Assembly (NCBI GenBank): GCA_009777625.1
Contig: WRLL01000008.1
Coordinates: 1 to 35,215, forward strand
From: Candidatus Saccharimonadota bacterium
Lineage (GTDB): Bacteria > Patescibacteriota > Saccharimonadia > Saccharimonadales > Saccharimonadaceae
Direction of reading: 5' to 3'
DNA: 35,215 bases
Positions 33,219-35,084 of the stretch are shown in pieces (position 1 is the first letter of the stretch; every line of letters begins with the position of its first letter). The position numbers were made by a program, and so were the translations under genes. A model generated the notes under the pieces. That model was not told the origin of the DNA. It searched no databases and saw nothing but the letters and a program-made list of their open reading frames with translations.

Positions 33219-33227
33219 TTATCCACA
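33219..33227 (+). promoter_or_regulatory. Perfect DnaA-box consensus sequence
   Basis: TTATCCACA matches the consensus exactly, in the gap upstream of the MraZ operator. It is single, so an origin is not supported; DnaA control of the mraZ region is possible, as is chance. Confidence 0.4.
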
Positions 33228-33253: not shown

Positions 33254-33296
33254 TGGGTCATAGGGGCTTGAAATGGGTGATCGTGGGTGATATAAT
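33254..33296 (+). promoter_or_regulatory. mraZ promoter with MraZ operator repeats
   Basis: TTGAAA (33268-33273), a 17-bp spacer and TATAAT (33291-33296). TGGGT repeats start at 33254, 33274 and 33284, that is 20 and 10 bp apart, with a GGGG remnant near 33263. MraZ is known to bind TGGGN direct repeats with 10-bp period upstream of its own gene; two of the repeats fill the spacer, so binding should block the polymerase (autorepression). Confidence 0.85.
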
Positions 33297-33369
33297 TTGG
33301 TCAGTGGAAATAAACAAACACCACAGAACATCAAATCAATGAATTAACAGGGAAGGGCGGCGGACCGAA

Positions 33370-33750
33370 ATGGATTACTTTGAGCGGAGATTGGACGACA
33401 AAAATCGTTTGACTTTACCGCCAGAGTTGCGCGACAGCCTTACCGATGTTGTTATCGCTCGCGGTTTCGGTCAGTATCTGCACATGTATCCGAAAAATGT
33501 CTGGGACAAGGACATCGAGCAGGCGCTGGTCGGCGACATCCTGGACGAAAAGATCGCTGATCTGAACGTGCAGTTCCGCATGGGCAAGATCGACGTTCGG
33601 CCGGACAGCAAGCAGGGCCGCATCACCCTTGAGCAACACCTGTTGGATTACGCTGGGATCGATCGCGAACTGGTGGTCGTCCGGGCGGGGAAATACTGGC
33701 GGATCCTGTCCAAGGAAATGGCTGAGCAGTCCGCGACGAAAAATCCTTAA
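33370..33750 (+). CDS. mraZ: Transcriptional regulator MraZ
   Basis: 126 aa, slightly shorter than the usual 140-150. It has the two AbrB-like half-domains with DxxxR-type motifs: DDKNRLTLPPELRD near the N terminus and DSKQGRITLEQHL in the second half. MraZ forms a ring that binds the TGGG repeats seen at 33254-33287 and represses the division and cell-wall cluster. ATG 33370 lies behind GAAGGGCGG. The gene is separated from rsmH by a 368-bp structured segment instead of the usual tight junction. Confidence 0.93.
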   Translation: MDYFERRLDDKNRLTLPPELRDSLTDVVIARGFGQYLHMYPKNVWDKDIEQALVGDILDEKIADLNVQFRMGKIDVRPDSKQGRITLEQHLLDYAGIDRELVVVRAGKYWRILSKEMAEQSATKNP

Positions 33751-33818
33751 CAATTTCAAAAATATGGTTCAGCGGCGGGAAATCGCTAACGAATCAAATG
33801 GGCACCTTAACAAACACA

Positions 33819-34048
33819 GAGGCCAACTACTCGGCAATCAGCCGGAAAGCAATCGCCGGCTAAATGGATTGTCGGACATCGGGCTACGCAAGTAGCTCAA
33901 ACAAAAACTCCACCTCACACATAAGTCTCTCATATGCTTGTTCGACCGGATTTTCTTTGATAGAGAATGCAACGAATGAACAAGCATAACTTAGAAAAAT
34001 AAAACAAACAGTTTGAAAATCAAAACTGATTGCCGAATAGGTGGCCTC
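33819..34048 (+). ncRNA. Putative structured RNA between mraZ and rsmH
   Basis: This stretch has no convincing gene but strong folding potential. The ends pair over 23 nt: GAGGCCA (33819-33825) with TGGCCTC (34042-34048), CTA with TAG, and TCGGCAATCAG (33831-33841) with CTGATTGCCGA (34026-34036), with only two 1x1 mismatches. Inside are GCCGG/CCGGC (33841-33860), a 7-bp stem closed by a GCAA tetraloop (33881-33898), ATGCTTGTTC/GAACAAGCAT (33934-33943/33978-33987) extended by TAAGT/ACTTA, and CAGTTT/AAACTG (34009-34028), which competes with the outer helix. RNase P, tmRNA, 6S and SRP hallmarks are not seen. It may be a free RNA or the rsmH leader, comparable in position to the actinobacterial mraW RNA motif. 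Confidence 0.6.
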
Positions 34049-34118
34049 CGTAACAACAGCGTGAAATCTTCTCCTCTTATGCTATCATAAAGGAGCGCGG
34101 TTTCGCGCGAAAAAGGAT

Positions 34119-35084
34119 ATGAAAATCACACCACAACAACTCCATATTCCAGTTCTGCTCGACGCGGTTTTAGATTTACTAAGGCCTAGGGCGGGTGAAA
34201 GCTACTTGGATTTGACGGCCGGTTACGGCGGTCATGCCCGAGCGGTGATTGCTCGCGATCGCGCAGCGAATTGTGCGACCTTAGTTGATCGCGACGAGTT
34301 TGCGATTTCGCATCTCGGCGATTTGCAGGAGCAGAGCGCGCGCATTATTCAGAGCGATTTTTTGGCAGCAGCTGAGAAATTATGCGATGAGAATGCGAAA
34401 TTTGATATGATTTTGTTGGATCTCGGTGTTAGTTCGCCACAATTGGATTTGGCTGAGCGCGGATTTTCTTTCGCTAAAGACGGCCCGCTGGACATGCGAA
34501 TGGATCAGTCGGCCAAATTAACAGCCGCGGAAATCGTCAATCGTTGGTCGCGAAAAGACTTGGAAAAGATCTTGATCGAATACGGCGAAGAACCGCCACG
34601 ATTGGCTGCGAAAATTGCCTGGGCGATTGTGCTGCGGCGGAAGAAAGAGAAGTTCACGTCAACCAACGACCTGGCCGAAGTCGTACGAATCGCCATCGCG
34701 AAAACAGACGGCGGCAAGTACCACAAAGTCCATCCGGCGACGAAAACTTTTCAGGCGATTCGGATCGCGGTCAACGACGAGCTGGGGCAATTGAAGAAAA
34801 CTCTGCCGATTTTGCCTGATTTGTTGAACGACGACGGGCGACTGGCGATCATTTCTTTTCACTCGCTGGAAGATAGAATCGTGAAGAATTTCCTGAAAGA
34901 GCGGAGCGAAGACGGCCTTGAAGCTACTTTAAAAATCCTTACCAAACATCCGATTTCGGGAGCCGAAAACGATGAAAATCCGCGAGCGCGCAGTGCAAAA
35001 TTACGCGCCGCCGAAAAAGTTACGACTTACCACCATACTCCACAATCAGTTAACCAACCGCGACGGGCAACCGCGCAGCAATAA
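34119..35084 (+). CDS. rsmH: 16S rRNA (cytosine1402-N4)-methyltransferase
   Basis: 321 aa. Motifs are HIPVLLDAVLDLL, YLDLTAGYGGHARA (SAM motif I), LLDLGVSSPQLDLAERGFSF.KDGPLDMRMD (catalytic region), HPATKTFQAIRIAVNDEL and LAIISFHSLEDRIVK. It methylates N4 of C1402 in 16S rRNA. Position after mraZ matches the division and cell-wall cluster of most bacteria. AAAAAGG (34108-34114) lies 4 nt before ATG 34119, and just upstream a CGCG-GTTT-CGCG hairpin could affect access to it. The C terminus is rich in Gln/Arg. Confidence 0.96.
   Translation: MKITPQQLHIPVLLDAVLDLLRPRAGESYLDLTAGYGGHARAVIARDRAANCATLVDRDEFAISHLGDLQEQSARIIQSDFLAAAEKLCDENAKFDMILLDLGVSSPQLDLAERGFSFAKDGPLDMRMDQSAKLTAAEIVNRWSRKDLEKILIEYGEEPPRLAAKIAWAIVLRRKKEKFTSTNDLAEVVRIAIAKTDGGKYHKVHPATKTFQAIRIAVNDELGQLKKTLPILPDLLNDDGRLAIISFHSLEDRIVKNFLKERSEDGLEATLKILTKHPISGAENDENPRARSAKLRAAEKVTTYHHTPQSVNQPRRATAQQ

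Follow-up and report, generated by a model that had tools for sequence, protein, structure and literature searches.

A conserved structured RNA with an upstream boxA precedes rsmH in Saccharimonadia

The non-coding stretch between mraZ and rsmH at positions 33819-34048 of contig WRLL01000008.1, from a Candidatus Saccharimonadota bacterium, represents one member of a conserved structured RNA family of the class Saccharimonadia, whose existence we regard as secure. The window, i.e., the whole stretch of 35,215 nucleotides (nt) that was analysed, is contig C8 of a 902-kb genome with Saccharibacteria as its nearest named relatives. Comparison of homologous loci is the source of the fold, pseudoknot, strand, invariant unpaired motifs, upstream boxA and place before rsmH that are described below; the function put forward for the RNA is a proposal. 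The reading that we favor, with about equal weight for and against it, is that of a new family of non-coding RNAs transcribed from the division-cluster promoter and built like a small precursor of ribosomal RNA (pre-rRNA). In ultra-small episymbionts such as the Saccharibacteria, whose genomes stay under about 1.5 Mb, an RNA of roughly 230 nt that is kept nearly class-wide with near-invariant unpaired stretches is very probably important. Its description would give a little-studied branch of bacteria a further RNA family and would place boxA, normally a signal of ribosomal RNA (rRNA), on a division-cluster transcript. The clarity of its motifs opens the function to direct tests in cultivated strains. 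The elements concerned are the following:

33802-33813, plus strand: boxA-like GCACCTTAACAA, 5′ of the closing helix
33819-33841, plus strand: 5′ strand of the closing helix
33842-33872, plus strand: H-type pseudoknot, with stem 1 CCGG (33842-33845/33856-33859) and stem 2 GCAAUC (33849-33854)/GAUUGU (33867-33872)
33881-33898, plus strand: GCAA-loop hairpin GGGCUAC-GCAA-GUAGCUC, lineage-specific, in the place of CACCUCCC of most relatives
33908-33932, plus strand: near-invariant unpaired core CUCCACCUCACACAUAAGUCUCUCA, found by the core model R1
33934-33987, plus strand: stem-loop AUGCUUGUUC/GAACAAGCAU, varying in sequence and length among homologues
34001-34010, plus strand: A-rich linker AAAACAAACA (consensus ACAAAAACAAACA), with invariant alignment columns
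34026-34048, plus strand: 3′ strand of the closing helix, including a near-invariant UAGGUG

An earlier note on this DNA, made from the sequence alone, had proposed that a 21-base-pair (bp) helix with two 1x1 mismatches joins the ends of a 230-nt non-coding stretch, and the pairs were all recovered: 21 in 23 nt, interrupted at 33826/34041 (A.G) and 33830/34037 (C.A). A repeat finder lengthens the match to 33816-34051 at 88%. The minimum free energy of the 230 nt is -78.7 kcal/mol, versus -44.5 +/- 4.0 in shuffled sequences (z -8.6), none of 200 shuffles being as good.

The conservation of this architecture was followed in the sequence 5′ of rsmH from about 100 genomes (110 loci, a few of them duplicates of one genome), RsmH having been identified in 99 of 101 relatives. 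Wherever both genes were found, the gap between mraZ and rsmH measures 245-657 nt, and individual folds of homologous loci show the same architecture. The core motif occurs in 91 of the 110 loci under a strict pattern and in 104 under an extended one. Among the six loci outside the extended pattern, L156 and L171 are cut contigs, L147 and L159 match the strict pattern, L178 is degenerate and L177 has none. The core-pattern counts, like those given below for the helix, G-U pairs, boxA and the drawable pseudoknot, carry some selection, as cut-offs and anchors were partly picked after viewing folds.

It was in these homologues that the covariation called for by the earlier note was sought, and it proved strong. 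In a 40-sequence MAFFT alignment, 98.5% of the cells of the closing helix are paired, and 16 of its 21 pairs show compensatory, both-sided changes. None of the five measures taken on the helix was reached in 500 shuffles (0/500), a control that is inflated by kinship among the sequences and made on alignments that are not structure-aware; helices slid along the alignment fall to 22-51%. Closing-helix pairs also hold the top ranks of an unguided covariation scan. Since G-U pairs (193) far outnumber A-C combinations (18), the RNA is read from the plus strand, and a minus-strand RNA was ruled out by the same bias. On the 3′ side of the first mismatch, the unpaired G34041 is G in all 80 loci, and the 3′ helix strand is near-invariant even where it lies distant from rsmH.

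The same unguided scan hinted at a second long-range helix, and a pseudoknot was then recognised by reading the sequences. It sits directly inside the closing helix, has an A-rich third loop and can be drawn in 77 of 80 loci. Because the search for it optimises both stems, a fairer test fixes stem 1 alone; under this constraint the loop forms 4.68 bp with its own downstream strand and 3.70 +/- 0.11 with that of other species, a difference reached in 0 of 500 trials (53 loci). In the unguided alignment all five pairs of stem 2 have both-sided changes, with about 70% of cells paired.

Between these helices lie the near-invariant unpaired motifs CACCUCCC, ACUCCACCUC, AUAAGUCUCUCA and ACAAAAACAAACA. 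Some lineages insert extra hairpins between them, and in the lineage of the window the GCAA hairpin replaces CACCUCCC; the hairpin with a GCAA tetraloop reported in the earlier note thus exists as described, but is restricted to that lineage. The note had not mentioned the pseudoknot, the core at 33908-33932 or the boxA at 33802-33813. Its suggestion that a hairpin at about 34009-34028 competes with the outer helix as a switch did not hold: the hairpin can be drawn, yet only in 5 of 80 loci versus 3.3 expected, so that the conserved, mutually exclusive pairings of a riboswitch were not found for it.

The core is rich in C and poor in G (C:G 1447:111). A small peptide encoded in it was rejected, as the length of the A-run and the inserts vary out of frame, which marks the core as non-coding. 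A role as Rho-binding site alone was likewise discarded, since it would make an invariant sequence needless. Mimicry of 16S rRNA was considered in two parts. The 5′ likeness, between ACACACCUCCC and the 16S sequence ACACACCGCCC that is the target of RsmH, is lacking in the window itself, and the 3′ likeness, between GGUGACCUCCGUAAC and GGUGAAGUCGUAAC, is confined to close relatives of the window. As a separate observation, a GUGGAGUU-like sequence complementary to the core AACUCCAC occurs 5′ of boxA in several 16S rRNA leaders (L200-L205), at a rate not above shuffled expectation.

Of 393 genomes from the class, 306 contain a match to a 54-position model of the core (R1), as a rule a single one. 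The genomes listed as missed belong largely to one genus (g2) in which the core has diverged, and in two low scorers that were tested (G139 and G009) the R1 match lies directly 5′ of rsmH. In the other orders of the class, most top matches, even those with E values of 0.001-0.8, are also directly 5′ of rsmH and have the same helix and mismatches. An exact pattern search, less sensitive than R1, found the core in none of 262 other Patescibacteria, and 69 rsmH loci, mostly from other phyla, gave no match.

The RNA family is undescribed and matches no known family, and the route of synthesis proposed for it follows known biology. No description was found in the open PubMed Central (PMC) literature. 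Against 4227 Rfam models, the window RNA and 20 homologous loci gave only chance matches, none over the gathering threshold, which agrees with the earlier statement that no known RNA family is recognised; for the window RNA this holds at gathering and permissive thresholds alike. A known RNA in disguise (RNase P, transfer-messenger RNA (tmRNA), signal recognition particle (SRP) RNA, 6S or other) or a chance fold is accordingly a far-fetched explanation. The large size and the pseudoknot would suit such an RNA, and the model of the small SRP RNA (RF00169), which had no match in the RNA, finds nothing in nine Saccharibacteria genomes (G000, G001, G010, G015, G023, G028, G034, G057 and G095; small bacterial model only). 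On the other hand, tmRNA (RF00023), suggested by the combination of closing helix and pseudoknot, exists as a separate gene over the cut-off in 9/9 genomes, that of G000 being on contig C9, and RNase P (RF00010) is likewise found elsewhere in 9/9, so that both are refuted; the massive covariation speaks against a chance fold. The 6S RNA model (RF00013) had no match in the RNA. The group's own 6S RNA might correspond to a sub-threshold match (31.8 bits) at G028:C1:821085-821237 (L215), in the neighbourhood of RNase P and tmRNA. The mraW motif of Actinomycetales (RF01746) is a listed candidate structured RNA that takes its name from rsmH (mraW) (PMC2864571); no covariance-model match to it was obtained in the window RNA or the 20 homologous loci.

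In 60 of 80 loci, versus 1.7 in shuffled sequences, a GCACCTTAACAATT-like boxA occurs at most 140 nt 5′ of the helix, the usual distance being about 15-55 nt; the same motif is present in the rRNA leaders of six relatives, e.g., CTTTGACAATTTAGTTG. It fits the published boxA consensus GYTCTTTAANA (PMC5725501). The RNA therefore has a boxA at a consistent place that matches the rRNA boxA of the organism, as befits a boxA-controlled unit. In pre-16S rRNA, boxA is followed by an essential leader-trailer helix longer than 17 bp (PMC10250234), and the present RNA shares this layout: boxA, then a covarying helix of 21 bp in 23 nt, against at least 17 bp expected of such a helix, joining the ends of an untranslated RNA. 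Unlike pre-16S rRNA, it encloses about 180 nt devoid of rRNA, has invariant motifs of its own and lies in the division cluster, and its cleavage would be by analogy.

The transcription signals and flanking genes are the following:

33268-33296, plus strand: sigma70-type promoter TTGAAA-17-TATAAT, its -10 preceded by TG (11/12 match; arrangement shared by homologues)
33304-33324, plus strand: 5′ leader hairpin GTGG-AAATAAACAAACA-CCAC, with a similar hairpin directly 5′ of boxA and the RNA where mraZ is lost
33370-33750, plus strand: mraZ (TIGR00242, E 1.6e-11, under the curated cut-off)
34061-34088, plus strand: weak promoter-like site GTGAAA-16-TATCAT before rsmH; many family members have a stronger extended -10 here
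34119-35084, plus strand: rsmH (TIGR00006, E 3e-94), the constant 3′ neighbour of the RNA

The promoter at 33268-33296, which lies within GTGGGT-type repeats resembling MraZ sites, is probably the start of the transcript that carries the RNA. Seven loci without mraZ upstream (L137, L034, L180, L112, L141, L145 and L146) retain the RNA, and most of them have a TTGCnT-17-TAaAcT-type promoter and a similar 5′ hairpin before boxA, several of these promoters having been called by eye, as the scorer did not always put them first. In the family of the window, an extended -10 TGNTANANT lies between the RNA and rsmH in 21 of 42 loci versus 0.7 expected, so that RNA and rsmH can be separate units there. 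A promoter of its own where mraZ is lost, together with a separate one for rsmH, would mean a promoter spent on the RNA alone.

The boxA-protected RNA that we favor would be made as follows. RNA polymerase starting at the mraZ promoter, or at a dedicated one where mraZ has been lost, would transcribe boxA, on which NusB/S10 would assemble, keeping Rho off the untranslated stretch with its many C and few G residues. Pairing of the 5′ and 3′ strands would then give the leader-trailer-type helix, a possible substrate of RNase III or a comparable enzyme, whose cut would free an RNA of about 180-230 nt. Pseudoknot and helix would display CACCUCCC, ACUCCACCUC and AUAAGUCUCUC and the A-rich stretches to a partner, either a protein or, via base pairing, a purine-rich Shine-Dalgarno-like RNA, and production of the RNA would track the division cluster's own control. 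The motifs shared with a second small RNA beside tmRNA, described further below, also speak for such a partner. Three observations weigh against this proposal. Almost every copy of the RNA sits next to rsmH, which is equally compatible with a cis element; outside the family of the window a promoter between RNA and rsmH is usually absent (present in 1 of 26 loci); and the core is no more complementary to 16S, spacer or partial 23S sequences than a shuffled core is, no target or partner having been found. As to position, tmRNA and RNase P are neighbours too, their genes being no more than about 6 kb apart in 8/8 genomes, so the order of non-coding RNAs is conserved in this group and the place before rsmH is not decisive by itself.

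It could be postulated instead that the RNA acts in cis, as a leader of rsmH and the genes that follow. The closing helix would then sequester a Shine-Dalgarno sequence, the AGGUGA/AGGUAA of its 3′ strand, until a protein, a metabolite or a ribosome event opens it, the CACCU copies of the core serving as alternative partners of AGGUG. The 16S 3′ ends read AUUACCUCC, so that AGGUAA/AGGUGA would be able to pair with them; position and strand before rsmH are constant, and in L007, L008, L131 and L148, as in several loci from other orders, the 3′ strand stands about 7-9 nt 5′ of the AUG. Genes regulated by a boxA upstream of them are known (PMC5725501). Yet 3-230 nt of variable sequence separate RNA and rsmH, and in most of the order the 3′ strand lies 12-230 nt from the AUG while staying near-invariant; the window's family often has the separate rsmH promoter, the competing hairpin is not conserved, and no terminator-like U runs were seen 3′ of the RNA. 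The control of rsmH or the division operon proposed in the earlier note is conceivable but unproven; some ten loci of the order, and several from other orders, have the 3′ arm directly against the start of rsmH. Taken together we consider a cis leader rather unlikely, and the boxA-then-end-joining-helix layout of pre-16S rRNA is what makes us prefer a boxA-protected, possibly excised RNA.

Structured leader RNAs with a role in antitermination are known in principle. Processive antitermination, in which boxA and the structured RNA would modify RNA polymerase to read through the division operon, draws on this precedent, on the boxA, perhaps joined by another boxA-like element (GyACyUU) 3′ of the pseudoknot, and on the resemblance of the C-rich, G-poor core to a Rho-binding site. 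As rsmH often has its own promoter 3′ of the RNA, and a degenerate Rho site requires no invariant sequence, we hold it to be improbable.

Comparable systems differ from the present RNA in several respects. UpsM, a small RNA from the 5′ leader of the Rhodobacter dcw cluster, is likewise a non-coding RNA from the promoter region of this gene cluster and is described as acting in cis and trans (PMC5089854, PMC8625941). Compared by description, it is encoded upstream of mraZ, stops at an intrinsic terminator and occurs only in Rhodobacteraceae, and the accessible parts of these reports mention no boxA or pseudoknot. The suhB leader also carries boxA in an mRNA leader outside rRNA, but the available portion of its description includes no comparable large structured RNA and reports the opposite effect, repression (PMC5725501). 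The decRNAs are stable pieces cut out of transcripts from the E. coli mraZ-rsmH operon; they lie inside coding sequences (mraZ, ftsL, ftsI, murE), unlike the intergenic, covarying RNA of Saccharimonadia (PMC6156199).

More tentatively, and with some doubt on our side, the RNA might act as a class-wide, possibly essential stable ribonucleoprotein or global base-pairing RNA, with anti-Shine-Dalgarno-like CACCUCCC and ACUCCACCUC, made by an rRNA-like boxA/leader-trailer route and coupling division to translation, with a partner in common with a small RNA encoded beside tmRNA. The latter, a second undescribed RNA of about 100 nt on the opposite strand to tmRNA, has a sigma70 promoter, a hairpin and an intrinsic terminator, and was seen at G028:C1 near 816539 (L218), G023:C1 near 1149010 (L223) and G015:C1 near 678582 (L220). 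It has the motifs CAAAAAyAAACA and CAAAAACUCCAC in common with the RNA upstream of rsmH, which suggests a common partner.

Two further observations concern the flanks. An exact DnaA box TTATCCACA, on either strand, lies 5′ of mraZ in 21 of 37 loci, the copy of the window being at 33219-33227 beside GTGGGTA repeats; these repeats confound counts that allow one mismatch. In family f1 (e.g., L013, L027, L028 and L147), a short hairpin whose loop contains or adjoins a -10-like sequence directly precedes the rsmH AUG, where it would block translation of a read-through RNA and not of a leaderless transcript.
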